A DNA stretch of 64,000 bases from Anaerolineales bacterium (GTDB lineage Bacteria; Chloroflexota; Anaerolineae; Aggregatilineales; UBA2796): assembly GCA_015075625.1 (NCBI GenBank), contig JABTTZ010000001.1:310001-374000 (forward strand), read 5' to 3'. A model generated the notes under the pieces. The model was given only the letters and a program-made list of their open reading frames with translations. It was not told the DNA's origin and did not search any database. This document shows, in pieces, positions 18,433-47,471 of this stretch; the first letter of the stretch is position 1; each line of letters opens with the position of its first letter. The position numbers and the translations under genes are program-made.

Positions 18433-18436
18433 GGCG

Positions 18437-21400
18437 TTAGTTATCCTCCATGTCAAGCTGCTCGAACAGCGACAACTGCATCGTTTCGGGTGTCTTGGCC
18501 TGCTCTGCCCGCCAGTGCCCGACCAGCGCCAGCGCACGCCCCGCCGCTTCCCTGATTGAAGCATTAGGGTCAACCTGGCTGTACCAGGTCAGGATCGCAT
18601 CGACGGACTTCTTGAGCTTGAACGTCTCTCGGTTGCTCAGTTCTTTGGTGATGTCGATCCCGCTGCCGGGCAGCGCCGCGCCGATCAGAAAATGCGCCTG
18701 ATCGAGGTCAGTCTTCAGCACCTTGCGGTTGCGACCCGGCGCGGTGAAGAAGGCGAAACGCTCACGGATCGGCTTCGCCTCGATAGTCGTGCCACGCGCT
18801 TCGATCCACCCTGCCGCTTCCAGCGCATCCTGCGACACCCCTGTACCGCGCAGGGTCTTGTGCAGCTCATCACGGGACATCGCGCTGCGGCTCTGGAAAA
18901 TGCGCAGATACAGCCGCGACATGGGTTCGGCGTTTTCCGGCGGACGGCGTACCGTGCCCTGTTCGAGCAGATCATCCAGCAGTTGGTTGATGCCGAGCAG
19001 CGCGTCGCGCACGCCCAGCGCCTGCCGATCTCCGGTGAGCACCTGCCCATAGTGGCGGCTGTAGAATTCGAGCGCTTTGCCACGCAGGATGACTCGCAGA
19101 TCGGAGTCGGGCAGCGTCTTGCCGTGGGTGTGTTCAAGGAGCAGCTTAAGGCGATTCACCTCATCCTTGACCCAGCGGCGCATCCCGGCGTAGCTCACGG
19201 GTTGGGGGTCGTCCAGCCGCTTGCGGCAGACATGAATAATGTCATACTCGATTTTCTGGCTGCCAAACTGCGCTTTATCGCCCTTTGTCTCGTCGCTGCG
19301 GATTGGGTAGGTAGCGACCAATACGAACCCTGCCTGAAACAGTGCCGCCAATACATTCGCCCAGGCGCGATCCTCATCGTGGTGGAAGGTAAATGCCATA
19401 AGGCCGCCTGGCTTGAGCAACTTGCCTGCCTGATACCAGCATTCCATGAGGGCATTCTGATAGAATTCCTCAGCAGGTGGGAGACGGAACGCCGAGTTAG
19501 GCGTTTTATCCTCCAACAATGGGCGTTTTTCTTCAGGGGTACGATCATCGGGGTGTTCTGCCCAGTTCTCGATGGCTTCAATTGACTTCGGCGTAAATTC
19601 CGGCTTGAAGTATTCCGCCTCTGACAGACCCGCATACCACTTCTGCAAAGGGATGCGCAGCCACACATAGAAAAAGTCTGCGAGGTCGGCATAGTTGATG
19701 TTGTCGCCGAATGGAGGATCAGTAACAACTAAATCCACCAGTCCTCGCGTGGCAAGATCGGCAAGGTCGGTTGAAGATTGGCAATACAATGTTGACACAG
19801 CAAACGGAACCGGATCGTCAGTTAAAATGCGATGGCTGGTGCGACTGTTGTCAAAGGCAACCTCCCATGCTTCGCTTGACCACTCTAATCCCTCAATACA
19901 TGCTTGGACGCATGACAACCAATTTCCACGCCCCAAATATCCCCATACCGAGTTCTCCAGAACCTGTTGCTTGGGATGATAATTGGGATTGGAAAACATC
20001 GGTTCAGGCGTATCACGCTGAGTATTCCAAAAAACGAACATATTCTGATTTCTCAGATACTGTTGAAACGCCCCCAGCGCTTGTTCGCGGACATCGAGTG
20101 CCCAATCGCCGCCGCCATTGGTGATTGCTCGCAGCAATTGGGCATGGACCAGCAGTTGGCGGGAGTTGAACATCTTCCACCAGTGCGTGTAGCCGTGACC
20201 CTGTATGTCCCAATGCGAAGTCTTCCAAGCATAGGGCAAAGCAGGATGAGGGAAATACGACTCCAAATCCGCGATGTTACGTGTTGCCCATTCAGTCTCC
20301 GCAGCAATCAGCTTCTCTACATCGCTATCATCGGGTGCTTTGAAATAACGTCCGGTGTAGTTGTAGCCCTCTAACGCGCATTGAGGACAATGGCATTGGA
20401 GAGCATATACCGCCATTGCCCCGGTATGATTGCTCGCCTTAACTGCTTCCAATACGTCTTGTTGGCGACCGCATGATTGACATGCAAACGCTGCTTTTGC
20501 GGGAATCGTTCCAATACGAGTCGTAATCCGCGAGCCATCGCTTAGGACAATCTCACGGGGTAAGCCGTAGCCTTTGCGGTCATCGCCATCCGCTTCGCTC
20601 GCACCTTCTTCACCTGCATCCGTGTCTTCATCATCAGGCGTGGTTTCATCCGCCAGTTTGATCCGCCCGCGCACCTCAATGAGACGCAGCCCTTCCATCC
20701 GAGCGCTGTACCAGCGGGCAGTGCTGTCGGGGTCTGCGCCTGCCCAGCCGCCCAAAGGCTGCCCATCCAGTTCACCGGGGGTGCCGCGCAGCCAGTCCGG
20801 GTGGATCAGCAGGTACATGTAGACATGGCGGGTCTCAATGCCGTAATCGCCCTTTTTGATGTCGCTCTGCCGCTGCACCTTCTTGTGTTTCTCCGCCACC
20901 TGTTTGATGCGTCGGCCCGCAAACGCCCCGCAGTGTGGGCAGCGCAGCCCCGGTTCGTCATCGATAGTTTCGATCAGTTCATTGATCCGGGCGGTCTTTT
21001 CGGCGCTGCTGCCCTTGCTGTAGTCCTTCAGCAGTTGGGCAAAAGCCTGTGTTGTCTCCGTAAAACTCGGTTCGTTATCGAGAACAACCCGCTCCACGCC
21101 GGGAGCCATGCGCGTTTCACCAAGCTCGATATGGAAGGCGCGTCCGCAGTCCGGGCATGAGGTAGGAATGAATGCGGTGGTGAGCTTCTTCTCGGCAACC
21201 ACCGGAGACTTAAACAGCGGCGTGCGGTGACCGTCTGCCTTGCAGGGGCCATGTTTAGCCCAGAAGGTGTAGATGATCTCCGGCCCATACCAGCGGTAGC
21301 GCTTGCGGTCTTCAGGCGGCAGAGTCAGTGGATCTACATCGGCTGGCAGATCAGTTTCAAGATCGATCCATTGGCCCTGATGTCCGCGCGGGCAGGTAGT

Positions 21401-22003
21401 CGTGTAGAACGGCTGAATCAGCGGCTTGACCTCGCGCTCAATGTGATCAAAAAACGCCTGCACCTGTTTGGGATCGCTGCACGCCAGTTCGTTTTTGGTC
21501 ACGAACCACGCCACCGGGTTCAGGTCGATGCCTGTCATCTGAAAGCCGAGACGCGCGCCTTCGACCATGGTCGTGCCGCCGCCCATGAAGGGTTCCAGCA
21601 CCCGCAGTTTTTTGAAGCTGCCCGCCTTCTGGTGGTTCGCGTAGTAGTGATCCCAGACCAGTTTGCCCGCTTTGGTGGGGTCTTCGGGCGCTTGGGTGGC
21701 CGCCGCGATCAGCAGGCTGCGAAAGACGCTGGATCGCCGCCGCGCCCACCACTTGGACATCTGGTAGATTGGCTTGCCTGCATTACCTTCCAGATTGGAG
21801 AGGGCGTTGATCGGCGCAATGGGAAAATCAACCTCCAGGCAAACGGGAGGTCGATTCGGGTCGTTAAAATCAGGCACGGGCAGCCGAATCGCCTTGCCGA
21901 GATTTGGCGGCTGGTAGGCGGGCGCTTTTTTGGTCTTGTCTTTTTCAACCTTCTTCAGCTCGTCCGGTTCAACCGGCATCAGCTCTTGCTGTTTATTCGC
22001 CAT
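18437..22003 (-). CDS. DUF1156 adenine-specific DNA methylase (PglX-like)
   Basis: A 1188-residue methylase starting at ATG 22003. The N-terminal DUF1156 region (LSNLEGNAGKPIYQMSKWWA) leads to SAM motif I EPFMGGGTT (139-145) and GIDLNPVAWF. Four Cys-rich zinc knuckles follow (CPDCGRAF, CPHCGAF, CQSCGRQQ, CHCPQC), then the catalytic motif DPPFGDN (D762) of amino-methyltransferases. This is the COG1743 architecture used as the modification enzyme in BREX type 3. Length is typical and no frame disruption is visible. It starts 11 bases after the PglZ stop. Confidence 0.85.
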   Translation of the reverse strand: MANKQQELMPVEPDELKKVEKDKTKKAPAYQPPNLGKAIRLPVPDFNDPNRPPVCLEVDFPIAPINALSNLEGNAGKPIYQMSKWWARRRSSVFRSLLIAAATQAPEDPTKAGKLVWDHYYANHQKAGSFKKLRVLEPFMGGGTTMVEGARLGFQMTGIDLNPVAWFVTKNELACSDPKQVQAFFDHIEREVKPLIQPFYTTTCPRGHQGQWIDLETDLPADVDPLTLPPEDRKRYRWYGPEIIYTFWAKHGPCKADGHRTPLFKSPVVAEKKLTTAFIPTSCPDCGRAFHIELGETRMAPGVERVVLDNEPSFTETTQAFAQLLKDYSKGSSAEKTARINELIETIDDEPGLRCPHCGAFAGRRIKQVAEKHKKVQRQSDIKKGDYGIETRHVYMYLLIHPDWLRGTPGELDGQPLGGWAGADPDSTARWYSARMEGLRLIEVRGRIKLADETTPDDEDTDAGEEGASEADGDDRKGYGLPREIVLSDGSRITTRIGTIPAKAAFACQSCGRQQDVLEAVKASNHTGAMAVYALQCHCPQCALEGYNYTGRYFKAPDDSDVEKLIAAETEWATRNIADLESYFPHPALPYAWKTSHWDIQGHGYTHWWKMFNSRQLLVHAQLLRAITNGGGDWALDVREQALGAFQQYLRNQNMFVFWNTQRDTPEPMFSNPNYHPKQQVLENSVWGYLGRGNWLSCVQACIEGLEWSSEAWEVAFDNSRTSHRILTDDPVPFAVSTLYCQSSTDLADLATRGLVDLVVTDPPFGDNINYADLADFFYVWLRIPLQKWYAGLSEAEYFKPEFTPKSIEAIENWAEHPDDRTPEEKRPLLEDKTPNSAFRLPPAEEFYQNALMECWYQAGKLLKPGGLMAFTFHHDEDRAWANVLAALFQAGFVLVATYPIRSDETKGDKAQFGSQKIEYDIIHVCRKRLDDPQPVSYAGMRRWVKDEVNRLKLLLEHTHGKTLPDSDLRVILRGKALEFYSRHYGQVLTGDRQALGVRDALLGINQLLDDLLEQGTVRRPPENAEPMSRLYLRIFQSRSAMSRDELHKTLRGTGVSQDALEAAGWIEARGTTIEAKPIRERFAFFTAPGRNRKVLKTDLDQAHFLIGAALPGSGIDITKELSNRETFKLKKSVDAILTWYSQVDPNASIREAAGRALALVGHWRAEQAKTPETMQLSLFEQLDMEDN

Positions 22004-22013
22004 ATTCACTCAA

Positions 22014-22973
22014 TTACTTCGCAGGTAGTCTTACAAACGGTACAGCCACTTCTAGGAGGCTCAGGCCGCCGTGACACAGGTTGGGAAAGCCACCTTGCAC
22101 GCTCCACTTACGCTGCCCAATGACCACATGCTGGTTATTCTCAGTCAGCACCAACGGCGGCATGAAGCGATTTTCCCAAACGGCGGAAGCGGGTTTCGTC
22201 CGAGAGGCGCTGAAGGTGTCGCGCATCAACTGGATGCTCTCTTTGTCGGTAATCTCATCCGAGAAGAGTTTGCTGGTTGCGTAACCATGATCACCGGTGA
22301 TGACCAGTTCACGACCCTGACGCATCCGATCCACAAGCGCCCAGAACCCGGCATCTTTGAGCATATCAGCAGCCTGTTTGTAGACTTGCTCTGGCGCTTT
22401 CTGCTCATGAATCAGGTCGTCAATGAAAGTGTGCCAGAGGAGGATGTTGTGTTCATAGGGCACGCTGCCCACGCAATCTTGAAAAGGCACACTCAGCACA
22501 TCGGTGTAGGTCTGCGCCAGCGCAAATCCACCCGGTTTGCCGTTGTTGGTCAGGCTGCTTCGTGTGGACGCACCCAGCGCCTGAGCAAAGCGATTGGTGT
22601 CCGATGGAACCTCTGATCCGGTTACGACAACCTCGATAGGTTGGATATTATGCGCCGCTGCACCCTCCAACAGCACGTGCAGTTCACGAAGGGATAGCGC
22701 ATCCAATATCAGGGTGGCGCGACCAGTTGCCGCTGGCTGTGCATACCAGCGTTTCAGGCGCGCTGCTGTGCGCTCTGCGCTGGCGGAGTACGCCTCCCAA
22801 AGCTCCCAACCGCTCTCCGCCAGCAGCCGATCAGGCGCGACGGTCTGGTTGTGGAGTTCTGTTGGAGACGTGGCCTGAACGGCAATGTCGTTCAGGTGTT
22901 GGAAAATCGCCTGCCATGCCTCCGTTGGCGTGGTCGCGCCCAGGATTACCTCTGTCCAGCCCAGCGCGTTCAT
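22014..22973 (-). CDS. Compact PglZ-domain protein
   Basis: A 319-residue protein of the alkaline-phosphatase-like PglZ family: LILDALSLREL around D91 fits the metal/nucleophile strand and TGDHGYA (D228, H229) is the characteristic PglZ DHG motif. PglZ proteins in established BREX systems are usually 650-900 residues; this one is essentially the catalytic core. It overlaps the DUF499 gene by four bases (ATGA), so stoichiometric co-translation is likely. PglZ is essential for BREX defence, though its substrate is unknown. Confidence 0.75.
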   Translation of the reverse strand: MNALGWTEVILGATTPTEAWQAIFQHLNDIAVQATSPTELHNQTVAPDRLLAESGWELWEAYSASAERTAARLKRWYAQPAATGRATLILDALSLRELHVLLEGAAAHNIQPIEVVVTGSEVPSDTNRFAQALGASTRSSLTNNGKPGGFALAQTYTDVLSVPFQDCVGSVPYEHNILLWHTFIDDLIHEQKAPEQVYKQAADMLKDAGFWALVDRMRQGRELVITGDHGYATSKLFSDEITDKESIQLMRDTFSASRTKPASAVWENRFMPPLVLTENNQHVVIGQRKWSVQGGFPNLCHGGLSLLEVAVPFVRLPAK

Positions 22974-25726
22974 CGGGACTCGTCCTCTTCGTTATAGGAG
23001 ATTTCGAGCAAAGCCCGCAAGGATGATGGTATGCGCGTGAGAATTTGTTTCAACTCCTGGACAGTCAGGTTGCCAAATTCCAGCTTGGCAGTCGTCAACC
23101 GCGTGCCGGAAGGCACATTCCAGCTTTCCAATTTACCCGCCAGATTGATACTGGTATTGGCGTCATCGGTACGTTGTGTTCTCACAACGGGCTGCTTCGG
23201 TATTGGCGTCGGGTCGGGTTGTACGGGCGGTACAACGACAACAGGTTGAGCGCCGCCGGGGACGGTTACAGATATGGGCGGGTTGGTTGATCCCGGCGTG
23301 GGTGCAGGTTGGGGTGGTGTGATCGGCGGTACAGTGACGGTTGTGCCGCCGACGGCTTCGGGCAGGGCGATTTGCACAGCCCTCAACTCCGAGCCAGAAC
23401 GGAAAGCACGGCTCTTGACATGGTTGTATGCTTGGTCGCTGGAAGTATGCTCGGTCAATCGGCGAATCCAAGCGCCGCCTACATTGAGCGCGATCTTGCC
23501 ATCGGCGGCCATGCGCATAATACGCTCATAGATGCGCGTATCTCCGAGGAAGGGAGTAGCTTCCTCAGCGGGCGAAGACGGCGGCTCGTAGAGATAATCC
23601 AGCACATCTCCAACGACTCCGGTATCTTTGGCGATTTCAAGGATGTAGTTCTCGAACGGCGCGAAATCGAATATCTCGTCGTTGATCTTGGCTTCTACCT
23701 GAGCCGGGATGTCCTCGCCCTGCGCATTGACACGTTCCCATGTAAAGCGGCAAGCTGCCGGATTCTGAAAATCCCAATGCTGCAAAATAGCGAAGCGGTC
23801 AAAGCGCGTTTTCAGCGAATCGCGCAGCGGCTTGTCGAACTTGTCCTTCAGGGCACGGTACTTGCCGTCATCCTTCCATGCGATTGAGGTTAGGAAAGAC
23901 CCACGGGCATTTTGGATCATGGTCTGATCAGTGTATATGCCTTGTGTTCCTGCCCCAAGCAGAAGGAACCTCACCGTATTGCGTCGCCGGGAAACATGAG
24001 CCTTGAGCCATTCCCCCAAGCCGAGAATACGCCCGTCAGCCTCAATCGTGACCGGATCGGGAATAACCAGCAATACCGGGCGATCCCAGCGGGCAGGCTG
24101 ATCCGCTTCGTCAACATCCTTCCAGGGGTCGCGCTGCCAGTTAGGGCCAAGTACGATGATCCGCGATGGTCGTTCTTTTGCCTCTGGAGAGAGGATCGAA
24201 CGGAATGTCTTTCGAATGTGGCTGATGTCTTCACCCGGAAAGACCTGACTCCCGATTGTCGCTACAGCGCCTGGCTCCCAAAGCTTGTTGTTGCGTGCAA
24301 TGGTGCGTACTCTGGTGGTGGGATTTTCTTCTAGTTCGAAGCGCAGACGCTCGTTCCCAATTTCACCCCCATGAATATTCGGGGCATGGTCTTCCAACTG
24401 ACTCAATTCGACACGGAAGGCATTGTCGTCTTGGGATGCGCTGCGGGTAATGTCAAGCTGAAGTTCCTGACGGGTCGCGCCGTTGTTCTTTCCTGACGAA
24501 AGGGAGCGCATCCACAGCGCGCTTACGAGTTCACGGGCATGGGGAACAGGCGCATTTGTCGAGGCAATGCTTTCAAGATTACGTTGCGCAACAGCCCGCA
24601 GTTTTTCCTGGTCAGCGGCTGTCGCAATCGAGTCAAGCAGTGTGGTTACGCCGCCTGAATCGTCATCAACAAAGAAATCGGCTGGTGTGATGACCGGTGA
24701 GTGCTCCCCTCGTGCGCGATACACTTGGGCCAAGATTCGGATCAGGTCACGTGTCTCCTGTGCCGCTTCTGCCATCAGAATCTGATCTTCAAGCAGTTCG
24801 AGCAGTTCTGGCGCGAAGGGCCATGCGCCGATAACCTCGCCCGTAATTCGATCTTGCTCAGACTGAGAGATCCCAGCATAACGTAGGCGAAAACGCTCTG
24901 ATGCGTAAGCATTAACAAGCGATCTGATCTCGGCCTGCGGTATGTTGCCTCGGTTCATGAACAACCGATGCAGCAACAATCGCTGCCTATCCTGACGGGC
25001 TGTCGGCCCCCGGAAATCCACAACTACGGGTGTGTTGCGATGAACCTGCTTAAATGCCTCAGTTTGGTTGTTCAATACCGAAATCACCAAAATGAGGTGT
25101 TCTGGTCTATCTTTGGAAAGCTCCGATAGAATCTGGATGAAATTTGAAGCGTTGGTCTGCCACTTGCGTCCTGCGGGATCATCATGTAGTCCATCAAACC
25201 ACTTCTGGAACTCGTCCAGAATCAGCGCAACGGGCTGTTCCTTGAACATGCGCTCCAGTAGCGAACGCGCAGGAAAAGGATTGCCGGATGCCTCGAACTC
25301 TCCCCTGTAATATTGGCCTCGCGGGTGCCGATCAAAGATCAGGTTCCACAGAAGGGGATATTCTTGATTGTGAACAGCTTCTGAAATAGCCTGATAGCCT
25401 CGCTGAATAGACAGTGAGGTCAGTGTGGGCGATCCAACACGGTTTCCCCAGTCTCGCACCCAAGGTTCCATTGTATCGGGGGAAGAAATCGCATGATGCA
25501 TCACCGCCATAATGTGCGATTTGCCACGTCCGCGATCTCCCATCAAGACGATGGGACGCCCCTCTCTGGTCACGCTGATCGCTTTCAAGGCGTTCTGGAT
25601 ATCCGTTGTGGGATACGTGATTTCCTGTATCCAACTCGGCGGACGCTGTTTCACGTCAGCCAACGCGATGGCGGTGCCCGGCGTCTGGGCGTTAAGAAAT
25701 TCAGGTCTGAGCTGAAGATTCAGCAT
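22970..25726 (-). CDS. DUF499 AAA+ ATPase (BrxC/PglY-like)
   Basis: A 918-residue ATPase. Walker A is GDRGRGKS (63-70), preceded by TTDIQNALKAI, and Walker B is PVALILDEFQKW. A Pro/Thr/Val-rich linker (about 815-865) precedes a short C-terminal domain. DUF499 proteins belong to the BrxC/PglY group of large BREX ATPases. First gene of the BREX-like operon, with AGAGG 11 bases before ATG; the 120-bp gap to the HU gene should hold the promoter, but I cannot place one convincingly. Confidence 0.8.
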   Translation of the reverse strand: MLNLQLRPEFLNAQTPGTAIALADVKQRPPSWIQEITYPTTDIQNALKAISVTREGRPIVLMGDRGRGKSHIMAVMHHAISSPDTMEPWVRDWGNRVGSPTLTSLSIQRGYQAISEAVHNQEYPLLWNLIFDRHPRGQYYRGEFEASGNPFPARSLLERMFKEQPVALILDEFQKWFDGLHDDPAGRKWQTNASNFIQILSELSKDRPEHLILVISVLNNQTEAFKQVHRNTPVVVDFRGPTARQDRQRLLLHRLFMNRGNIPQAEIRSLVNAYASERFRLRYAGISQSEQDRITGEVIGAWPFAPELLELLEDQILMAEAAQETRDLIRILAQVYRARGEHSPVITPADFFVDDDSGGVTTLLDSIATAADQEKLRAVAQRNLESIASTNAPVPHARELVSALWMRSLSSGKNNGATRQELQLDITRSASQDDNAFRVELSQLEDHAPNIHGGEIGNERLRFELEENPTTRVRTIARNNKLWEPGAVATIGSQVFPGEDISHIRKTFRSILSPEAKERPSRIIVLGPNWQRDPWKDVDEADQPARWDRPVLLVIPDPVTIEADGRILGLGEWLKAHVSRRRNTVRFLLLGAGTQGIYTDQTMIQNARGSFLTSIAWKDDGKYRALKDKFDKPLRDSLKTRFDRFAILQHWDFQNPAACRFTWERVNAQGEDIPAQVEAKINDEIFDFAPFENYILEIAKDTGVVGDVLDYLYEPPSSPAEEATPFLGDTRIYERIMRMAADGKIALNVGGAWIRRLTEHTSSDQAYNHVKSRAFRSGSELRAVQIALPEAVGGTTVTVPPITPPQPAPTPGSTNPPISVTVPGGAQPVVVVPPVQPDPTPIPKQPVVRTQRTDDANTSINLAGKLESWNVPSGTRLTTAKLEFGNLTVQELKQILTRIPSSLRALLEISYNEEDESR

Positions 25727-28351: not shown

Positions 28352-29026
28352 TCACCGCTCCCTCGGAAACCAAGCGTCAAGGTCATCAAGATCGGGTGTG
28401 GTAGGTTCTACCTCTGGTTCGCGGCGCAGGTCGCGCCAGCGTTCTCCAACGATCTCATCCAAAGCCGCCTCGAAATGCTGCGCAGCGATTTCTCGAAACA
28501 GGCGGTCATGGCCTTTCTCTGTGTTGTTGTAGAAGGCGTGGCGACCTTCCAGGGAAGGCACGGTGCCGGGCAAAATCACATGGGTATGCAAATGCTGGAG
28601 ACCGGGTTCGCCGCCGTCTTTTGCTGTGGTCAGACGGTTGTGCAGGACGAATGCATATTCCGGGACTTCTGCGCCTCGTGCCGTGTAGTACGACTCAACG
28701 ATGCGTTCGGTCAGATCGACGACCAGATCACGGCGCATGTCTTCCGGCACGAGCGCCATCAGGTCGGGCGCAGGCGAGATGACCCACGACCAGGCGAGGA
28801 CGTGCTTGCTGCTCAGCTTATCGCAGTTGTTCAATATGGTGCGGTAATCCTTGCCCAGTCCGTGATCTTGCCAGCGCTCTTCCCGATCTTCTGGCTTGAG
28901 GTGCTCATCGCGGTTATCCCGATATGTGAAGTACTTGAGCTTGCCACGTAGGTGCTTGTGGGCGCTGACGCGACCTTTACCCTTTGTCGAAACATAGCCA
29001 AAGTCGGGCACAATCGTGGCCTTCAC
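28352..29026 (-). CDS. HUH-type relaxase
   Basis: A 224-residue protein with the metal-binding histidine cluster H145-L-H147-T-H149 followed by a hydrophobic strand (VILPGT), and AFVLHNR (H129) upstream, as in MOB-type HUH relaxases. Candidate catalytic tyrosines lie at 113-114 (ESYYTARG) or near the N-terminus. It nicks oriT and pilots the strand through VirD4. It is short for a relaxase, comprising only the nuclease core. It overlaps the RHH gene by four bases and precedes the coupling-protein genes. Confidence 0.7.
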   Translation of the reverse strand: MKATIVPDFGYVSTKGKGRVSAHKHLRGKLKYFTYRDNRDEHLKPEDREERWQDHGLGKDYRTILNNCDKLSSKHVLAWSWVISPAPDLMALVPEDMRRDLVVDLTERIVESYYTARGAEVPEYAFVLHNRLTTAKDGGEPGLQHLHTHVILPGTVPSLEGRHAFYNNTEKGHDRLFREIAAQHFEAALDEIVGERWRDLRREPEVEPTTPDLDDLDAWFPRER

Positions 29027-29436
29027 GACTTATCCTTGTCGTGGTCCATGTTGCGCACCGCATCCATTTGCGCCAGGAGGCGTTCACCGTCGCGCCGGGC
29101 GGCGATGATGGCCTGCTGAAGAAGTTGCGATGTGGTCGTGCGTTCCTTTGTGAAGTGCGGCAGCATCTGAGGCAGCGCATTGGCAAGCAGGAGTAACAAG
29201 ACGTTCAGATGGAATTCGAGGGCGTACTCCAGCCGATCTATCCGATCCTGGAACGAGCGTGCAAAATGCCGTCGGCTGCCGATGATGTCCTGTTGTTCGT
29301 CGAGGTAGAGCCGGATCGCTTCACGGATCAGGTCGCTCTCGGTAATGTCGCGCCCTAGTTTGCTGACAAGTTGCTCAAGGCGGCTGTGCATCTCCGGGGT
29401 CATGGCGATGCTGCGCCGAATCGTCTTCCCCGCCAT
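29023..29436 (-). CDS. Ribbon-helix-helix relaxosome accessory protein
   Basis: The 137-residue protein begins with a CopG/Arc-type ribbon-helix-helix domain (KTIRRSIAMTPEMHSRLEQLV, then TESDLIREAIRLYLDE), followed by a helical tail. Small RHH proteins encoded immediately before a relaxase usually bind oriT and help nicking, and often repress their own operon. The phased repeats at 30588-30642 are a candidate binding site. It overlaps the relaxase start by four bases. Confidence 0.78.
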   Translation of the reverse strand: MAGKTIRRSIAMTPEMHSRLEQLVSKLGRDITESDLIREAIRLYLDEQQDIIGSRRHFARSFQDRIDRLEYALEFHLNVLLLLLANALPQMLPHFTKERTTTSQLLQQAIIAARRDGERLLAQMDAVRNMDHDKDKS

Positions 29437-30357: not shown

Positions 30358-30430
30358 AGAGGGCGGGTTTCGCCGCCAGCGAAGCGGGTAGCGGCGGCCC
30401 GCCCCCAAGCCCCCACCGGCGCATGAGGTG

Positions 30431-30448
30431 GCGAGCGTTTTAGCTCGC
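30431..30448. repeat. 6-bp inverted repeat
   Basis: GCGAGC and GCTCGC arms around GTTTTA, three bases before the next inverted repeat; part of the candidate oriT/ncRNA region. Confidence 0.55.
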
Positions 30449-30450
30449 TA

Positions 30451-30502
30451 CTCCCCCCACCCCGCTATCTCGATACACAAAACCATGTCGAGGTGGGGGG
30501 AG
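30451..30502. repeat. 11-bp inverted repeat around a 30-nt loop
   Basis: CTCCCCCCACC (30451-30461) and GGTGGGGGGAG (30492-30502) are perfect complements. Inside, CTCGA and TCGAG can add an inner stem. The C-run/G-run arms make a stable hairpin, the kind found beside nic sites or at structured RNA ends. Confidence 0.75.
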
Positions 30503-30587
30503 TGACCGCCGCAACGCGGCGGATGCCCGCCTGCCAGGGCGGGCATAGCAGCCGTGCCGACCCGCCAAGATCGGGATACCCGGAGTT

Positions 30588-30642
30588 GTACGACCTCGGT
30601 ACGACCACTTCGGCAAAACGGTACGACCCCGGTACGACCTGC
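30588..30642 (+). repeat. Helically phased GTACGACC direct repeats
   Basis: GTACGACC begins at 30588, 30599, 30621 and 30632, i.e. offsets of 11, 22 and 11 bp; the empty slot at 30610 reads TCGGCAAA. Sites would therefore lie on one face of the helix, as for cooperative binding by an RHH or iteron protein. The block lies 85 bp before the RT start and about 400 bp from the mobilisation operon start. Confidence 0.85.
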
Positions 30643-30726
30643 CTTGATCCCTTACCGTGTTGCGGCATAGAATTATGCGCAATCATTCGTGTTGACCGCA
30701 TTGAAGGCTCTCTGAGGAAATCCGTA

Positions 30727-33700
30727 ATGCAGTACACTTGGGACGACGCAGTCACCAATGTTTACCAGGAAGTCATTCAGCACATATGTAGCCTATATGC
30801 TGCACCACCCCGACAATGGCTTAACAAACCCCTGTCGTGTAATTCGATTGCTGGAACTGTTGATCCGAATGGAAAGGTTAATGTCAACGATGAATCACCT
30901 GACAGTATAGCCGGACAGTTCTACGACTACATGCCAGGGCATAGTTTCAAAGTTCAATACTTGATAGACCATCTGGACAAGCATTATGCACTGTCTCTCC
31001 ATACAGAACGGGCATGTCTTGCCATTGTGGACATCGGTTGTGGTGGTGCGACAGCAACGACAGCGCTCATCAACATGCTTTTGCGAAAATCCGAGAGAGA
31101 CACGCGCTTTTTATTTGTGGGGATAGACACCAATCACTGCGCTGTTCAGCTCTATGATTGGATGATGCAGGGTTATTCTCGCGTTTCAGCCTTGGAGGAA
31201 CGCATCGACTATCATGCTGTCATAAAAGGAATGCCCGAAGTATTGACTTATGTGGCCGAAGGTTTGCATCAAGCGAAAAAGAAATGGGCTATTCCATCGC
31301 TAAACGATCTCTGGGTTATCCAATCGAATGTAGTTCGACCATTGCAGAATATCTGGGAGGAGGACAAAAAAGCGCGGAATAGCTTAGGACTAGATGCCAA
31401 CCGAAGTCTAATTCCCGATGATTTCGGTGAGGTCGAGGCACGCGCTTATGAGCAGTTGTTGCGGCTCAGTGAGGCGGATCGGATGCTCGTTATGACAGTG
31501 GCGACTAATGACGATAACTGGCGTGGCAGCTCGAGTCAGTTTGGTGACTCCGTGATGCGCATATTCTCAGATAGGAGTCATAGAGCGACCCGTCTTTATG
31601 CACCGCTAGTCGTTGCCCAGCCCTTGTCCGTGTCGTATACAAATCCTGATGGAAGCTATTGGCGTACTCAGCGCAGGGTTACAAGTTATACAGCGAGATT
31701 CTATGCCGATGTAGAACATATCGAAAGCCAACATTTTCTGGCTGATCGGGATTGGCAAGAGATCATTTCGCTGGAGAATCTAAAACTCGCATGGGTGCGG
31801 GTCCGTGCTGCCATGATCCGCGAGTCAATAGTAGACGAAGTTGATCTAAAGCTGTTTGAGTACAAGCTTGACGGCAACCTGCAGGCCATTCGAAACCGTT
31901 TACTGACTTATACAACTCGCCTGACGGATTTCCCACGCCTTTTCTACAGTGTCCCCAAAGATGAAGGCAAGTCTCGCCCGCGAGCACTGCAATCAATTCA
32001 TGAGGAGGTTTTGGCGGTAGCGATCATTCAGGTTCTCGGTCGAACGGTACAAGAGCTAATGGCCCGCAATTACGGGTATCGCCTCGACCTTGCCGGAAAT
32101 ACTGAATACTTGTATCGTCCGTGGTTCCGCTCCTACGGGCGTTTTCGAAATGCGGTAAGAAGGGCGCTGCGTGGTGGGGATGAGAATGGGATTATAATCC
32201 GGAGCGATATTGCTAACTTCTATCCCACCATCCCGCAAGAAAAGCTACTCACTACAGTTTCGGCTAAACTCCGAATTGAGGCGAATCCACGGGTTGTTTG
32301 GCTATTGCGACAACTCTTGTTGCGCTCTGAAAATGAGAAAGACGGTGGCGTACTGCAGGGGCCATTGGCTTCTGGGTTCTGGGCAAACTTGTATTTACTC
32401 GAATTGGACAGTCGATTCTCAGATGACTATGCACATGCATCGTTCTACCGGTACGTTGATGATATGGTGCTTGTTGTCCCCGATGCGTCAGCGAAGGATA
32501 GGGTGTTGCAGGATCTCAGAGAAAGCATCGGGGAATTGGGACTGAACTTGTCCGATGATAAGACGGATAGTGAGTCGGTCGTCAGTGCGTTGGAAGCGCT
32601 AGAAAGAGATAAGACTCTTGATGATTTGGACAAGCGGTTTCGGCAGTTGACGGATGGGTTGTATTTCACGCATCCCGATTATCACGCGAAGCTACGGCTC
32701 GCCGCAGAGCATGATTGGTGGAAATTCATCTATGCCTACCAGCAATGTTTGAGTAAGTTGGGAGTTTTTGTCGAAGCATCTCGCTTAAGTCGAAAGGTGT
32801 GGCAGTATGTACAGAATCCCTTGCTGCGCCGAGAAGTGCGAAAAGAGTTTCCCGCGTTTGATCACTCGCAAGATCGTGACTTATGGACTCGGCAGTTCAT
32901 CGAGGAAAATGATCAGTGGAGCGGTGAGTACAATGCCATAAAGACTGAGTTGTCTAATTTACTTTTAGAAAAGTGGGGTGAGTGGAAAATCCTTAAGGCT
33001 GAGAACCCGGATAAATTGGGCGAGAAAGAACAGAAAGCGAACCTCAAGAATATCCAAACTTATCTTAGCTTTACCCTGAATCGGCTTGCGCGACTTGGGT
33101 ACGATCAGGTTCTAAACATAGTTATCGAGATCATCAGCAATTTTCCTTACGTTCTGAAGTCTCCACGAGTAGTCATTGAGCATTTGGCGTTGCAAGGTCA
33201 TGTTGAGCACCTTCATACCATTTGGCAACAGCTCCATGAGGCAGTTTTCCCAGGCATTTCATCCTTGAGGGCGCTCATCCTTCGGTTCTTTCGTTCGACG
33301 GAGGCGGTACAAAATCGGGGGATCATCCGTATTCTGGAGGGCATCAGTGTGAATGACAGAGTATTCACAGATGATGAATTCTTGGTGGAAGCATTGATGG
33401 CTACCGAGACACTCATTTTCACCCCTCAATATACCCCTGATGTCCGTCAGCAGAAGGCATTTGCTGGTTGTGCGATCCAAATCAAGGATCGATGTGCACA
33501 ACTTGCGCGTAACCTCCTCATTTTGGCACAGCGGAACGGGAGTCAGCAGGAGCAATACGATCTCATGCGTGAATTGATGGCTGAGTGGTATTCGTTGGAC
33601 AACAATTATAGAACATATCAGGAACCAGATTTTGACAGTGAGATTATCGAACCGGAGGTAGTACGGAAAAACTACTACTACTCGCGTTATCCTGACAATG

Positions 33701-33729
33701 TGGAGGAGTTTGAAGGCGACTACTTTTGA
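30727..33729 (+). CDS. Methyltransferase-like domain fused to reverse transcriptase (probable defence RT)
   Basis: ATG 30727 (GAGGA eight bases upstream) gives 1000 residues; the frame is open further upstream but runs through the repeat region. Residues ~95-240 look like a Rossmann SAM-methyltransferase: VDIGCGGATATTAL (motif I, D102) and FVGIDTNH (acidic D134). Residues ~400-640 are a reverse transcriptase: SDIANFYPTI (D494), GVLQGPLASGFWANLYL (motif B), YRYVDDMVLV (Y576-V-D578-D579) and GLNLSDDKTDS. A helical tail of ~350 residues follows. There is no maturase or endonuclease domain and no intron structure was noticed, so it fits the 'unknown group'/defence-associated RT class. The fused methyltransferase-like domain is unusual. 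The gene is AT-rich relative to the ICE backbone and stands alone. Confidence 0.85.
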   Translation: MQYTWDDAVTNVYQEVIQHICSLYAAPPRQWLNKPLSCNSIAGTVDPNGKVNVNDESPDSIAGQFYDYMPGHSFKVQYLIDHLDKHYALSLHTERACLAIVDIGCGGATATTALINMLLRKSERDTRFLFVGIDTNHCAVQLYDWMMQGYSRVSALEERIDYHAVIKGMPEVLTYVAEGLHQAKKKWAIPSLNDLWVIQSNVVRPLQNIWEEDKKARNSLGLDANRSLIPDDFGEVEARAYEQLLRLSEADRMLVMTVATNDDNWRGSSSQFGDSVMRIFSDRSHRATRLYAPLVVAQPLSVSYTNPDGSYWRTQRRVTSYTARFYADVEHIESQHFLADRDWQEIISLENLKLAWVRVRAAMIRESIVDEVDLKLFEYKLDGNLQAIRNRLLTYTTRLTDFPRLFYSVPKDEGKSRPRALQSIHEEVLAVAIIQVLGRTVQELMARNYGYRLDLAGNTEYLYRPWFRSYGRFRNAVRRALRGGDENGIIIRSDIANFYPTIPQEKLLTTVSAKLRIEANPRVVWLLRQLLLRSENEKDGGVLQGPLASGFWANLYLLELDSRFSDDYAHASFYRYVDDMVLVVPDASAKDRVLQDLRESIGELGLNLSDDKTDSESVVSALEALERDKTLDDLDKRFRQLTDGLYFTHPDYHAKLRLAAEHDWWKFIYAYQQCLSKLGVFVEASRLSRKVWQYVQNPLLRREVRKEFPAFDHSQDRDLWTRQFIEENDQWSGEYNAIKTELSNLLLEKWGEWKILKAENPDKLGEKEQKANLKNIQTYLSFTLNRLARLGYDQVLNIVIEIISNFPYVLKSPRVVIEHLALQGHVEHLHTIWQQLHEAVFPGISSLRALILRFFRSTEAVQNRGIIRILEGISVNDRVFTDDEFLVEALMATETLIFTPQYTPDVRQQKAFAGCAIQIKDRCAQLARNLLILAQRNGSQQEQYDLMRELMAEWYSLDNNYRTYQEPDFDSEIIEPEVVRKNYYYSRYPDNVEEFEGDYF

Positions 33730-33797: not shown

Positions 33798-34697
33798 TCA
33801 AACGTAGAAGCCACCATGTCGAACAGGAGCAATCTGCATCACTGCGCAAAGATCTTTCAGCCTCAGCCTTCCATGCCGACCAAAGCATATGCCAATGCCA
33901 CGCACGGGATCGAAATTGAAATGGCTTCCGGGATAATCGCGGCAATGCCCACAGGGACACAGCGCGGCGATGTAACCGTTTGCCTTGACATAGCCGCGAA
34001 ATTCGGCGCATAGGTGGTTAGCGACAGCGTGGAGAAGGCGGTTATTGACGCGATTATGGGTATGCGATGCCGAAGATGAGATCTTTGAGCGTTTACAGGC
34101 TGGTTTCAGAGTCGGGAAATCCGACAGTGTGTAGCGACGTTCCGGGTCAAGGGCGATAATGCGGCACGATGCGCCATTGCGTGTTGGTTTGGTGTTGAGC
34201 GTGCCGGGCAGTCGTAGCGCCTGGGCGGTATTGGTCTTGTCGCCGTTAAGCGCATTCGCCAGCCCAGCCAAGACCAGATCGGCCTGCCTCCAATCTGTAT
34301 TTGGCTGGATGAACCAGTACGCATGAATCCCGCCGCCACTAGAGACGATGCACGACGGCGAGAATCTGTAGGCATCCAGTTGGCGCTGCGCCGCATCAGG
34401 ATCGCCGTCTATATCCACAAACAGGGCAGGCAGCGCGGCCAGATCGCCCTTTCCACCACGCCGCCAGCGTCCAAGATCCGCCTTGCGGGTCGCCACGGAG
34501 AAGTAAGCGCCCCACCCTTGCGCATTTGCGGTGCAGATCTGCGCCAACGTATCCGCCAGTCGCGCCTCGTCCTTGATGGGCACGTGCCGCGAGGGGGTAG
34601 CGTGTTGTTTGTCGGGGTGGATGGCGGTGAATGTGAGAAACCCGCTCTCCACGCCGTGGTACAGAGCGCGGAGGAAAGTCATGGTTTCGGCTTGCAT
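33798..34697 (-). CDS. RepB-type/AEP primase of the element
   Basis: A 299-residue protein with the archaeo-eukaryotic-primase-like metal motif ALFVDIDGD (D95, D97) and SSGGGIHAYWF (H125), then ALRLPGTLNTK, the pattern of RepB-family primases. The C-terminus has a CPCGHC...CFGRHG zinc-finger-like segment resembling CHC2. It would prime replication of the transferred strand or of the circular ICE. It begins 9 bp after the methyltransferase-helicase gene in the same operon; the preceding AGGCGG suits the ATG at 34697. Confidence 0.75.
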   Translation of the reverse strand: MQAETMTFLRALYHGVESGFLTFTAIHPDKQHATPSRHVPIKDEARLADTLAQICTANAQGWGAYFSVATRKADLGRWRRGGKGDLAALPALFVDIDGDPDAAQRQLDAYRFSPSCIVSSGGGIHAYWFIQPNTDWRQADLVLAGLANALNGDKTNTAQALRLPGTLNTKPTRNGASCRIIALDPERRYTLSDFPTLKPACKRSKISSSASHTHNRVNNRLLHAVANHLCAEFRGYVKANGYIAALCPCGHCRDYPGSHFNFDPVRGIGICFGRHGRLRLKDLCAVMQIAPVRHGGFYV

Positions 34698-42352: not shown

Positions 42353-44494
42353 CTATAACCAGAATGGAATATGTCCTCCTGCACTCTTCGGGCGCACTCC
42401 CCGTAAAACTAAATAACCGATGGCATCACTGTAGTGCAGTGAAACTGGCAAACGCGGCATTGGCACGGAACCATAGTGCAGATGCGTCATTGCTAGCACA
42501 GAATGCAAGGCTTCTTCAATGCTGAGATTACCCATCGAACGAACGTGCAATGGACGGGGTGTTGAATTCTTGGTCGGAGGCAATGACGAGACCAAGAACG
42601 CTTCCCGATCATTAAGAACGAATGCGGTTCCTTTCTGCGGACGGAGAATCCTGTCATATTCCTCGATATACAGGCGCGGAACTTTCGATTTCACTACTTC
42701 AACTGGAAAGAACTTAGCTCCAATGTCGTCACCCCACGCCTTAATATTGGCGACCTCATTGCCTCGATACAATCCATCACGATGAATAATCGTTCGCTTG
42801 CCTGCGAACTCGCTGGATGGTAGCAGTCTTCGTAGTTCGCTTTGCGTTAGCATCTCGCCCTGAACTAATGTGTCGAGGAATGTGTACTTCAAGAAGTCCC
42901 CGTTTGCGGCGTAAATACGTGTCATCGCGGCGATATTGCGGCTGCCAGCGGTGCGCTCGTTACGCTCACGCGCAATATCAATCCCCACAACCAGATCAGT
43001 ATATGGCAATGGCTCGTCTAGGACATATGGCACTGTACCTGTTTTAGCAAGTATACCGAGTACAATGTTGCTGATTGCATAGTTCTGGCGCAGTGTCGTT
43101 TCATAAATGAACTGACTTTGAAGATCGTGGGCCAGCGTGATCGCTTTCAGGTCATGGTAGAGACTGTCGGCAACCTCCCCGTCGAGGGGATTACCTGGCA
43201 AAACAGCGATAATGAGATGCGGGTTCAGTAGAGCCAGCTTTTCCACAGCTATTTCAAGGGCGTGATGTGATTTTCCGTCAGGTCGTGCTGCTCCTATAAA
43301 ATTCACCGGGAAACCGATGGCAGCTAGTTCTTTGCCGATTTGACCGAGATACGACTTTCCCTGTGGATGTTCTCCGATAAGGTTGAGTGTTGCAAGACGC
43401 AGGGGGCTGCTACCCAAATCTGCTGCGCGGCGGTACGGCGGAAATTTGCGCAGGGCTGCTAGAACAGCTTGTGGATCGCATCGGCATGAAGCGTTATTTC
43501 CCAAACGCGCTTTTATTCCGAGTTGACTGTCGAGATTCAGCATGAACCGCGCTTCATGTACTTCGCTGTTGAAGGGTTCAGCCTCGATATATCCCAACTC
43601 CGCGAAGAGACGCGCGATTTGCTGAACGATTTCGCGCCGTGGATCAGATGAGATTTGCAGATTGCTAAGAGCATCCTGACCGTTGATGTCGAGCTTTCTA
43701 TACTGCTCAGTCGTCGCAATCATCTGCAAGGCGCTTGCAGGATAATCGTAGCTCTTCCCTGACACGGTTCGGACATGAAGGACCAAATCTTCGTTTGGAG
43801 CATTCTTGATGATGGCTTTCATTTCGTTACGGGTTGTGCGGGCCAGTAAGTTTTCTCGATGCTCTGCCATTGTCCCCACTATCTGTGTGATTTTGCCTGT
43901 TAAGTTTCCGGTTTTATCCTTGACTTCTACGCCTACAAGGTCGTTCAACTTTCCAACCAGATCGCGGATGTAGTCCGTAAGCGAACGCGCCGGGAAGAGC
44001 TTCGAGTTCACCGATATGGCCAGCGCAGGTTGACCTTCGACAACCATCCCGCGAATATCATCATAGCGTTCTACAGTAGCGTTACGAATACGGCGCTGAT
44101 GCGCATCTAGGATTGCCCTAATCTCTTTCCGGTGATCTTCTGCTACACCAAAAGCAACGAAATCGGCCTGAGTCCGTGCCGTTGCTGAGAATGCTTTGTC
44201 CACACCCACCGAGCGCATCTTCTTGAACACATCGTCATCTTCTTCCCATAACTTCCGTAGAAGCACCATCAGGTCATCGGCCTTCTGCACCATATCCGTC
44301 ACCAAACGGCTCTGTGACCATATGGCACGTTTTCCGAGTTTCACACGAACCCGATGAGCGAATTTCCGACCTAGTTCAGCGGCATCCTCTTCGGGAGCAT
44401 GAACGATCCATCCGGTAAGAGGCGGTAGACCATCTGCTTTGATGGGATAGACATCAACGATGACTTTCGTTTTCGTCATAGCACTTGTGACCAT
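42353..44494 (-). CDS. ago: Long prokaryotic Argonaute, apparently catalytic
   Basis: ATG 44494 with AAGGA eight bases upstream gives 713 residues, a normal length for long pAgos. The PIWI domain has the four catalytic positions: D506 in VVGIDIARE, E547 in VQGEML (glutamate finger), D573 in IIHRDGLYRG and D690 in LHYSDAIGY, a complete DEDD tetrad with spacing close to Thermus Ago. MID-like sequence precedes it, and the N-terminal half should contain N and PAZ domains, which I cannot delimit. Such enzymes use short DNA or RNA guides to cut invading nucleic acid. Divergent from the XRE/ImmA pair, with a shared control region; AT-richer than the ICE backbone. Confidence 0.9.
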   Translation of the reverse strand: MVTSAMTKTKVIVDVYPIKADGLPPLTGWIVHAPEEDAAELGRKFAHRVRVKLGKRAIWSQSRLVTDMVQKADDLMVLLRKLWEEDDDVFKKMRSVGVDKAFSATARTQADFVAFGVAEDHRKEIRAILDAHQRRIRNATVERYDDIRGMVVEGQPALAISVNSKLFPARSLTDYIRDLVGKLNDLVGVEVKDKTGNLTGKITQIVGTMAEHRENLLARTTRNEMKAIIKNAPNEDLVLHVRTVSGKSYDYPASALQMIATTEQYRKLDINGQDALSNLQISSDPRREIVQQIARLFAELGYIEAEPFNSEVHEARFMLNLDSQLGIKARLGNNASCRCDPQAVLAALRKFPPYRRAADLGSSPLRLATLNLIGEHPQGKSYLGQIGKELAAIGFPVNFIGAARPDGKSHHALEIAVEKLALLNPHLIIAVLPGNPLDGEVADSLYHDLKAITLAHDLQSQFIYETTLRQNYAISNIVLGILAKTGTVPYVLDEPLPYTDLVVGIDIARERNERTAGSRNIAAMTRIYAANGDFLKYTFLDTLVQGEMLTQSELRRLLPSSEFAGKRTIIHRDGLYRGNEVANIKAWGDDIGAKFFPVEVVKSKVPRLYIEEYDRILRPQKGTAFVLNDREAFLVSSLPPTKNSTPRPLHVRSMGNLSIEEALHSVLAMTHLHYGSVPMPRLPVSLHYSDAIGYLVLRGVRPKSAGGHIPFWL

Positions 44495-44524
44495 TGCATT
44501 TGTCCTTTCCAAGTCGAGAAAATG

Positions 44525-45001: not shown

Positions 45002-45023
45002 CTTTGGCCGCAGGAAGGTGACC

Positions 45024-45869
45024 ATGGAGAGTGTGGATTGGAATAGTCTACTGGCGCGTCAACTCCTCACGGAAACCCAAGCGGCTGTGATGGAAGACGC
45101 GCTGATCGCCAGGTTAGATCGAACCCTCAGTATATTCGGTACTCCCAAGTATCCAATCGACCTCCCGCTCGTAGCTTCTGTATTTGGAATTGAACCGAAG
45201 TTCAAATACGTTGAAATGGCCCAGGCGGGTCGCCTTGTTCATCTTGACGGGAAATATCATATCGAAGTGAACAAGGCTCATCCTAATGTACGCAAACGAT
45301 TTTCAATTGCTCACGAGATCGGTCATAAAGCTATCCTGACGAGCAAAATTGGGGTTCCAAAGGAACGTATATCCTATAACCCTGATATTGAAACGGGTGA
45401 GGAAGAGGAAATCTGCGATTTATTTGCTACGATGCTTCTTGGTTTGCGTCCAACCTTTATCAGCGAAACGCTTGGTGATCGAGGATGCTCGTTAGCAACC
45501 GTAGACTTTCTTGCCAAATATCTGGACGTGTCTTTTGAGGCCGTGATCCGCGCCATCGCATGTTATGGACAGATACCTGCCATATTTCTATACTGCCTAC
45601 CCGCCGCAATGGGCAATGACGAGATTTTTTATATTCAGCGCTACTACGTGACACGCCGATTCCCATACACCCTTTTGGGTCGAACGATTCTGCCCCATTA
45701 CAACTGCCTCAAACGGGCATGGCTTGGGCAAGGTACAGCAAGAACTGTGGAACACTGGCAAAATGAATCTGGTCTTGGAGCGTCTTGTATTTTTGAGTCT
45801 ATGCGTATGCCCATTTATGTTGGAGACTCTAAAAAAGATGGGCTTGTCGTTGCAGTTATAGCCCAATAA
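45024..45869 (+). CDS. ImmA/IrrE-family metallopeptidase
   Basis: ATG 45024 (AGGAAGG five bases upstream; GTG 45018 rejected) gives 281 residues. RFSIAHEIGHKAI carries the HExxH zinc site (H97, E98, H101), and EEEEICDLFATMLL supplies the third acidic ligand. ImmA proteins cleave partner XRE repressors in ICEs such as ICEBs1. It follows the XRE gene after 22 bp, so the two are co-transcribed. The C-terminal ~120 residues are extra relative to minimal ImmA and may sense a signal. Confidence 0.88.
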   Translation: MESVDWNSLLARQLLTETQAAVMEDALIARLDRTLSIFGTPKYPIDLPLVASVFGIEPKFKYVEMAQAGRLVHLDGKYHIEVNKAHPNVRKRFSIAHEIGHKAILTSKIGVPKERISYNPDIETGEEEEICDLFATMLLGLRPTFISETLGDRGCSLATVDFLAKYLDVSFEAVIRAIACYGQIPAIFLYCLPAAMGNDEIFYIQRYYVTRRFPYTLLGRTILPHYNCLKRAWLGQGTARTVEHWQNESGLGASCIFESMRMPIYVGDSKKDGLVVAVIAQ

Positions 45870-45881
45870 AGCACGTCATCT

Positions 45882-47414
45882 TTAGCTCAAAAGTGTCCTC
45901 GCCCGATACTGCACTGCCTCAGCCACATGCTCCGTGCGGATGATGTCGCTGGCCGCGAGGTCGGCGATGGTGCGGCTCACCTTCAACACTCGATGATAGG
46001 CGCGGGCGCTCAGTTGCAACTTGCGCAGCGCGGCCTTCAGCAGCGTTTCGGCAGACTCATCCATCGTGCAGAACTTCTCGATCTCGCCCGCACCCAGATC
46101 GCTGTTGGTCAGCACGCCGGGCAGATCACGATGACGGGCATATTGGCGCTCGCGCGCCTCTTCAACCCGCGCTTGAATGACTGCCGATGGTTCGCCGCGT
46201 CGCGCATCGGTCAGTTTGTCGTAATCGACCCGTTGTACATCCAATTGAATGTCAAAACGATCTAGCATGGGGCCGCTGATGCGTGCTTGATACTTGCGCA
46301 CCAACGGCTCAGAACAGGTACAGGCTCGCATTGAATCGCCCCGATAGCCGCAGGGGCACGGGTTCATACTCGCCACCAGAATGATGTTGGCGGGAAACGT
46401 CACCGAGCCGCGCACGCGGCTGATCGTCACCACTTTATCTTCGAGCGGCTGACGCAGGACTTCAAGATTCCTGCCCATCTCCAACACCTCGTCCAGATAA
46501 AGCACGCCTCGGTGCGACATGCTCAGCTCACCGGGGCGCGGTATGCTGCCGCCGCCGATCAAGCCTGCCTCCGAGATGGTATGGTGCGGCGCGCGGAAAG
46601 GGCGGCGCTGCGCCATGCCTTTGCCAGAAGGCAGCAGATCAGCAACCGAGTAAATGCGGGTGATCTCAAGGGCTTCCGGTGGGGTTAGTTTGGGCAGGAT
46701 GCCGGGAAGCGCTCGCGCGATCAGCGTCTTGCCCGATCCGGGTGGGCCGGAGAGCAACGCGTGGTGGCCGCCAGCCGCCACGATCTCCATCGCCCGTTTC
46801 ACAAACTCCTGCCCTTTGATGTCCGAGTAATCCACGAGACGTTCCGGGCCGGGTTCGGTGGCTGGCGGCGTGCGGTTGCGATCATAAGGTGGGATGATAT
46901 TCAGCTTAAAAACATGTTCGACCAGATGCCCCAAACTGGACACCGGGATCACATCGATGCCTTCTACGAGTGCCGCCTCTGCCGCATCACATTCAGGCAC
47001 ATAGAGGGTGGAGTACCCCAATTCGCGTGTCATATAGGCGAAGGACATCACACCCCGCACGTGTCGTAAAGTGCCGTCCAGTGAGAGTTCGCCAACGAAA
47101 ACAGCATCCTGAAGCGACTCAGGCGGGATTTGTTCCGTCGCGGCGAGTACCCCCATCGCAATGGGCAAATCGTAAGCGGGGCCTTCTTTACGCATCTCCG
47201 CGGGGGCTAAGTTCACTAAATAACGACGCATAGGAAAATCCAAGCCACGATTGCGAACTGCCGACCGAACACGTTCTCGGCTCTCTTGGACCGCCGTATC
47301 TGGTAGTCCGACAATCGTAAAACCTGTCATTCCGCGCGGATTGTAATCCACCTCAACTGTGATCCTGACTGCATCCAACCCGACGAGTGCGCCGGACTGT
47401 ACAATAGAAAGCAT
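45882..47414 (-). CDS. comM: ComM/YifB-type Mg-chelatase-like ATPase, complete copy
   Basis: Start 47414 (MLSIVQSGALVGLDAVRITV) gives 510 residues, the usual ComM length. N-terminal ChlI-type fold, Walker A GPPGSGKT, MSHRGVLYLDEVLEMG (Walker B), the Cys-rich NPCPCGYRGD...CTC segment, and the Mg-chelatase C-terminus. ComM is a hexameric helicase that promotes branch migration during natural transformation. The 3' half and more is closely related to the truncated gene at 47651-49005, which lies back to back with it. It is interpreted as carried by the ICE, though a duplicated chromosomal copy cannot be excluded. Confidence 0.88.
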   Translation of the reverse strand: MLSIVQSGALVGLDAVRITVEVDYNPRGMTGFTIVGLPDTAVQESRERVRSAVRNRGLDFPMRRYLVNLAPAEMRKEGPAYDLPIAMGVLAATEQIPPESLQDAVFVGELSLDGTLRHVRGVMSFAYMTRELGYSTLYVPECDAAEAALVEGIDVIPVSSLGHLVEHVFKLNIIPPYDRNRTPPATEPGPERLVDYSDIKGQEFVKRAMEIVAAGGHHALLSGPPGSGKTLIARALPGILPKLTPPEALEITRIYSVADLLPSGKGMAQRRPFRAPHHTISEAGLIGGGSIPRPGELSMSHRGVLYLDEVLEMGRNLEVLRQPLEDKVVTISRVRGSVTFPANIILVASMNPCPCGYRGDSMRACTCSEPLVRKYQARISGPMLDRFDIQLDVQRVDYDKLTDARRGEPSAVIQARVEEARERQYARHRDLPGVLTNSDLGAGEIEKFCTMDESAETLLKAALRKLQLSARAYHRVLKVSRTIADLAASDIIRTEHVAEAVQYRARTLLS

Positions 47415-47420
47415 AAACAA

Positions 47421-47471
47421 ATAATCCCCATAAGCACCGCCGCCCTTCCTAGCAGCACTGCTGGGGATTAT
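47421..47471. repeat. 10-bp perfect inverted repeat upstream of complete comM
   Basis: ATAATCCCCA (47421-47430) and TGGGGATTAT (47462-47471) are perfect complements around a 31-nt loop that itself contains AGCAGCACTGCT. It lies between the comM start and the ICE/chromosome junction and could be an operator or part of the element end. Confidence 0.6.

Follow-up and report, generated by a model that had tools for sequence, protein, structure and literature searches.

Among the reverse transcriptases (RTs) of the UG groups, Class 1, to which the Abi enzymes and DRT4 belong, is defined by an RT followed by a C-terminal alpha-helical repeat domain (PMC13174585). The Class 1 enzymes studied so far are template-free while Class 2 enzymes use an ncRNA template (PMC13174585, PMC12632851). 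AbiK is the precedent for an RT combined with a helical scaffold (PMC9508834). In DRT1 (UG1), the RT shares its chain with an enzyme-fold domain, namely a nitrilase located at the C-terminus (PMC13275509). The UG35 protein described here likewise joins an RT to an enzyme fold in one chain and extends this pattern, but its partner is a methyltransferase (MTase) fold located at the N-terminus.

The UG35 gene lies in a 64,000-nucleotide stretch of an Anaerolineales bacterium contig, hereafter the window, as a single open reading frame encoding 1000 residues (30727..33729, plus strand). Its start codon is the ATG at 30727, with a ribosome-binding-site-like GAGG (30714..30717, plus strand) 9 nt upstream; an alternative GTG start at 30493 would lengthen the frame and the alignment of homologues favours 30727. 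The initial annotation had described an AT-rich gene in which an RT is joined to a methyltransferase-like domain and ends in a long helical C-terminus, and this description holds. The GC content is 0.48 for the frame compared with 0.56 for the window, fold prediction and homologues agree that the fusion is real, and secondary structure and Pfam agree on a long helical C-terminus with no maturase or endonuclease domain. The protein is laid out as an N-terminal class I MTase fold, a complete RT and the helical region. RVT_1 was the sole confident Pfam match of the window protein (E 1e-9), the best methyltransferase match being weak for the window copy alone (E 0.09) and ranging from E 0.0006 to 0.00009 for homologues. 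The full-length structure model reached a pLDDT of 74.8 and a pTM of 0.79.

The PADLOC model RT_UG35 matched the window protein with 650.8 bits and an E value of 1e-195 that excludes chance, aligning residues 19-992 with positions 10-933 of 938. Judged by this end-to-end match, the gene belongs to UG35 over its full length and shows no essential difference from that group; UG35 was catalogued in PADLOC-DB 2023, and the new DRT-like class that had been proposed for the gene is ruled out. The match includes the N-terminal domain, and all 13 rows scanned (the query and 12 others) matched the same model, so that joining an MTase fold to an RT is the regular layout of an existing named group. The second-best model was UG25, with 172.5 bits over residues 301-809, a stretch that takes in the RT and reaches into the helical domain. 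As in UG35, the RT of UG25 starts some 260 positions into the profile, but the N-terminal part of the UG25 model found no match in the window protein; a search for UG25 members for comparison of the N-terminus returned none, with controls equally silent. The PADLOC models and the lack of an Rfam match also place the RT among UG/DRT-type RTs and not among intron RTs, as had been suggested. The UG groups were reportedly defined in a 2022 NAR paper on UG/Abi RTs. The literature surveyed contained neither a characterisation of UG35 nor an experiment with one of its members, and UG35 is a catalogued, apparently uncharacterised group. What is new here is the MTase fold obtained by structure prediction, with METTL17/Rsm22 as the nearest solved fold, the conservation of the SAM pocket, the purifying selection, the lack of N-domains apart from the RT and the behaviour of UG35 as a one-gene accessory.

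The fingers and palm of the RT, delimited by Pfam RVT_1 and structural alignment, span residues about 339-625 (31741..32601, plus strand). In the alignment of homologues, motif A (SDIANFYPTI, residues 493-502; 32203..32232, plus strand) holds the catalytic D494, and motif C (YRYVDDMVLV, residues 574-583; 32446..32475, plus strand) the catalytic D578 and D579. Both motifs had been singled out in the initial annotation, and motif B, LQGPLASGFWAN, is found between them (32353..32388, plus strand). The three aspartates are invariant, as are Q544 and G545 among other RT residues. In structural alignment, G2L4 and group II RTs are the closest matches of the RT (Z about 25, VIA-align). In sequence, group II-like RTs, G2L4, DRT2, DRT1, DRT3a and UG17 are closer than AbiK, Abi-P2 and DRT4.

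The C-terminal helical domain covers residues about 626-985 (32602..33681, plus strand), as seen from secondary structure and from the alignment with AbiK and DRT6. Structurally, 447 residues of the protein could be aligned to DRT6 (9wy8_A, Z 16.0) and 468 to AbiK (7r07_C, Z 15.9). The helical domain contributes about 190-210 aligned residues to both, and none to the alignments with DRT9 or DRT2. In the same way as UG35, the Class 1 type proteins AbiK, AbiA, DRT4 and DRT6 have an RT followed by a structurally alignable helical domain. On the contrary, they are devoid of an MTase-fold domain and their RT sequences are weakly similar to that of UG35. As for the class of UG35, the two lines disagree, the structure of the helical domain pointing to Class 1 and the RT sequence elsewhere.

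The N-terminal domain (residues 1-338; 30727..31740, plus strand) is predicted to adopt a class I methyltransferase fold, based on AlphaFold2, PDB matches and a sequence match to AprA MT (E 1.5e-4). Predicted alone by AlphaFold2, it reached a pLDDT of 82.5 and a pTM of 0.85. The predicted order of strands and helices is that of class I methyltransferases, a seven-strand Rossmann fold with a final beta-6/beta-7 hairpin, and what it matches in the PDB is either a class I MTase or a protein whose fold derives from one. Prediction and PDB comparison thus agree on the Rossmann methyltransferase fold, which the initial annotation had named as the point to be checked.

Several motifs of this domain are conserved. 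An HxFK motif, whose H72 and K75 are unchanged across all 11 sequences, is located in the helix before beta-1 (residues 72-75; 30940..30951, plus strand). SAM motif I (VDIGCGGA, residues 101-108; 31027..31050, plus strand) is contained in VDIGCGGATATTAL (residues 101-114), and motif II (GIDT, residues 132-135; 31120..31131, plus strand), whose acidic D134 is invariant, in FVGIDTNH (residues 130-137), the two segments in which SAM-binding-like motifs had been noticed beforehand. Q199-x-N201, with both residues invariant, lies at the end of beta-4 in the AlphaFold2 model (31321..31329, plus strand). Invariant residues of the domain also include D102, G104, C105, G106 and G132. The DxGxGxG glycine loop and its acidic residue are complete in 10 of 10 homologues, the third glycine of GxGxG included; the window copy has D102, G104, G106 and D134 together with Ala108 in place of that glycine. 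At position 135 of motif II, homologues have a proline and the window copy a threonine. With this glycine replaced in its SAM loop, the window copy is uncertain to transfer methyl groups. The dN/dS of the N-domain is about 0.17 (two homologue pairs), which shows functional constraint on the domain; that of the RT is 0.09 (one pair, the other being saturated) and that of the C-domain 0.18. No free-standing N-domain was found in 151 genomes or on plasmids, and it occurred only fused to the UG35 RT.

The best PDB match of the N-domain is METTL17/Rsm22, with a Z of 20-22 over 248-268 residues, and this fold likeness covers the whole domain (residues 1-338); the next PDB family reached a Z of 13.6 over 200 residues. 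METTL17 and Rsm22 bind rRNA where the head and the body of the small mitoribosomal subunit meet (PMC9892005). Nevertheless, Pfam Rsm22 had no match in 11 N-domains at E up to 10. The cysteine cluster (zinc or Fe-S) found near beta-6 in Rsm22 and METTL17 (PMC8171064, PMC9892005) is absent from UG35 N-domains, in which the only cysteine-rich columns of the alignment are 99 and 105, both at motif I, and the OB domain of METTL17/Rsm22 is absent as well. In hhalign, a weak test in that the Rsm22 pieces were 52-75 aa fragments fetched with a bacterial Rsm22-like consensus, the comparison gave 33% to Rsm22 pieces versus 95% to generic MTase pieces. Membership of the Rsm22 family was rejected in view of Pfam, the cysteines and the profile comparison; the fold similarity stands and, given these results, it is the fold resemblance alone that we claim. 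A bacterial Rsm22 was also sought in 101 relatives with no match, but the controls were equally silent. In yeast Rsm22 the fold is kept and SAM binding is reported lost (PMC9892005), and one study reports activity for Rsm22 (PMC8171064). Its SAM loop reads GxGxA (PMC8171064), like that of the window copy and unlike those of the ten UG35 homologues.

Relatives were collected from the order of the window genome (seven loci), from other families of its class (two) and from Leptolyngbya PCC 6406 (one), plus a contig-end fragment. Homologues are 24-30% identical to the window protein, and the same architecture was observed in nine intact homologues, at 25-30% identity, and in the Leptolyngbya copy, which is split by a transposase-like gene (L001, 7226-8599, minus strand). 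UG35 is rare and patchy, being present in 8 of 154 genomes of the order and 6 of 396 of the class; a phylum-wide draw of 400 genomes returned a single one, that of the window itself, and no homologue was found in phages or viral contigs. Several homologues sit among metabolic genes, outside defence islands, and HEPN/nucleotidyltransferase pairs adjoin two others. In L028, a class-level homologue, UG35 starts 6 nt past an AddB/UvrD-like helicase gene. In Leptolyngbya, the preceding gene, a UvrD-exonuclease fusion that UG35 overlaps, is PADLOC RTasHel (1093.9 bits). With helicase genes directly 5' in these two loci, UG35 is helicase-paired in some lineages; the window copy stands alone, without a paired helicase.

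In three genomes of one genus, UG35 was found between racemase and monooxygenase genes; at least 14 further loci from sister genomes in this genus have the two genes directly adjacent, as an empty site. The inserted piece consists of the UG35 gene with about 90-260 nt on the 5' side and 16-31 nt on the 3' side. UG35 was thereby shown to be a single accessory gene of ~3 kb that is gained and lost by chromosomes and ICEs. Since the empty sites make one gene the whole mobile unit, a test needs that gene alone.

In the window, the ICE genes near UG35 are a T4CP gene, a RepB-type primase gene and a DUF6094/helicase gene. Together with the pAgo, Hma-like and Mrr-STAND genes present, they bear out the view of the initial annotation that UG35 is ICE cargo beside other defence genes. 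One border of the cargo slot is the RepB-type primase of the ICE backbone (33798..34697, minus strand), identified by Pfam RepB_primase and by its conserved order elsewhere. The other border consists of putative relaxase and CopG-like backbone genes (28352..29436, minus strand) with same-position homologues in L072 and L073, the relaxase being read from an HLHTH motif alone, with no Pfam match. The order in L072 and L073 is DUF6094, RepB primase, 5 kb of other cargo, CopG-like, relaxase-like and T4CP, and this cargo comprises ThiF and prokaryotic E2 genes with a TIR or a PAPS-reductase/DndC-like gene. The slot is filled in the window by UG35 and an OST-HTH gene and in the same-genus genome G001 by a DUF6946 gene after the primase, while G046 carries UG35 in an ICE of this kind, on the opposite side of the DUF6094 gene. 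These differing contents indicate that UG35 is exchangeable cargo, and the slot shared by L072, L073 and the window is likely a defence hotspot.

We consider it somewhat probable that UG35 is an antiphage protein in which RT DNA synthesis triggered by infection and a helical scaffold are combined with a SAM-binding MTase-fold effector or gate. Upon infection, the RT palm would make DNA, probably in a protein-primed manner and without an ncRNA encoded in the vicinity. The helical domain would replace the thumb and be the scaffold of an oligomer, like its counterparts in AbiK and DRT4/DRT6. The N-domain would bind SAM and be an effector or gate switched by DNA synthesis, the role of the nitrilase in DRT1; in the window copy, owing to the changed SAM-loop glycine, it may be limited to binding a ligand or RNA, with no methylation. 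The defence function, the protein-primed synthesis and the SAM-dependent gate or effector are inferred, with DRT1 and AbiK as the nearest precedents. A role in defence is suggested by the pAgo, Hma-like and Mrr-STAND genes of the window, RTasHel in Leptolyngbya and the HEPN/nucleotidyltransferase pairs. On the contrary, Ala108 and Thr135 of the window copy depart from the family, the homologues among metabolic genes do not favour this reading, and the RT sequence, nearer to group II, G2L4, DRT2 and DRT3a, points to a templated enzyme.

That the N-domain is an active methyltransferase, for RNA or DNA, and would methylate the RT product or a cellular RNA (rRNA or tRNA) is a possibility that deserves consideration although it is on the unlikely side. 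The initial annotation had supposed something similar, with the nucleic-acid product or a cap-like end as the possible substrate. The conserved SAM motifs I and II, the invariant Q199 and N201, the purifying selection on the N-domain and a nearest fold that binds rRNA in mitochondria (PMC9892005) are in line with it. Nevertheless, no catalytic signature of DNA N6A, N4C or C5 MTases is recognisable in the N-domain, Rsm22 does not stand out as a relative in the profile comparison, and the window copy carries the GxGxA loop of yeast Rsm22, reported without SAM binding (PMC9892005) and with activity in one study (PMC8171064). A bifunctional RT-methyltransferase that would gate or execute defence by binding SAM or by methylating its own DNA product or, METTL17-like, rRNA or tRNA is rather doubtful. 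We know of no characterised DRT for which reverse transcription coupled to methylation has been described. The conserved SAM-pocket domain nonetheless offers a direct and mutable hypothesis.

It is rather unlikely that UG35 is a templated DRT, in which the RT would copy an ncRNA from the structured 5' leader or elsewhere and the product would be the immune effector, as in DRT2, DRT9 and DRT10. Its RT sequence is indeed nearer to DRT2, DRT3a and UG17 than to Abi or DRT4, and the 300-nt 5' leader (30427..30726, plus strand) has strong hairpins and folds far better than shuffles (z -4.7, and -4.0 by separate own shuffles). A weak leader similarity was also seen between two homologues of 70% identity. 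Nevertheless, no unusual leader structure was found in the homologues tested, and 53 bp of the stretch adjoining the leader (query 231-283, about 30408-30460) recur without UG35 in the same-genus genome G001; we take the hairpins of the window leader to be more probably a lineage repeat than an ncRNA. No family-wide ncRNA was found beside UG35 and there was no Rfam match. Three loci have 16-31 nt on the 3' side, and two others have 6 nt or overlapping genes on the 5' side; this minimal spacing leaves no constant place for an ncRNA. A conserved block of 820 nt upstream of UG35 in L015 and L016, considered as an ncRNA, was rejected as an in-frame protein-coding gene (66% identical).

A housekeeping or group II intron-like retroelement RT lying beside defence genes by chance is very improbable, for although the palm is structurally closest to group II and G2L4 RTs and some homologues sit among metabolic genes, an intron RT is ruled out by the absence of group II intron RNA at UG35 (Rfam) and of a maturase or endonuclease domain and by 79 bits with the intron RT model against a cut-off of 300, the one-gene empty sites hold no intron-sized extra, and neither target-site duplications nor linked intron RNA were seen at UG35 copies.

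Several minor observations were made around these loci. The window leader (30427-30726) holds several GGTACGACC repeats. Just 3' of UG35, 59 nt are 93% identical between L015 (12646-12704) and L018 (11552-11610), whose proteins are 39% identical, and in L015 this block runs into the end of the following gene. In L028, 145 nt on the 3' side of UG35 (12903-13047) fold with a z of -6.7 and form a hairpin before the HEPN/nucleotidyltransferase pair. In the window, a long prokaryotic Argonaute (42353-44512, minus strand; PADLOC pAgo 660 bits, Piwi domain) is found near an IrrE/CapP-like peptidase gene (45018-45869), and an Hma-like defence cluster (15171-25726, minus strand) comprises an HmaA-like helicase, a large HmaB/DUF1156-like methylase and a DUF499 protein. 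An AT-rich gene at 4749-7595 (minus strand) fuses an Mrr-type nuclease to a STAND ATPase and has no PADLOC match. Finally, two Mg-chelatase/ComM-like genes (45882-47549, minus strand, and 47509-49005, plus strand; window 45882-49005) overlap head to head at their 5' ends.
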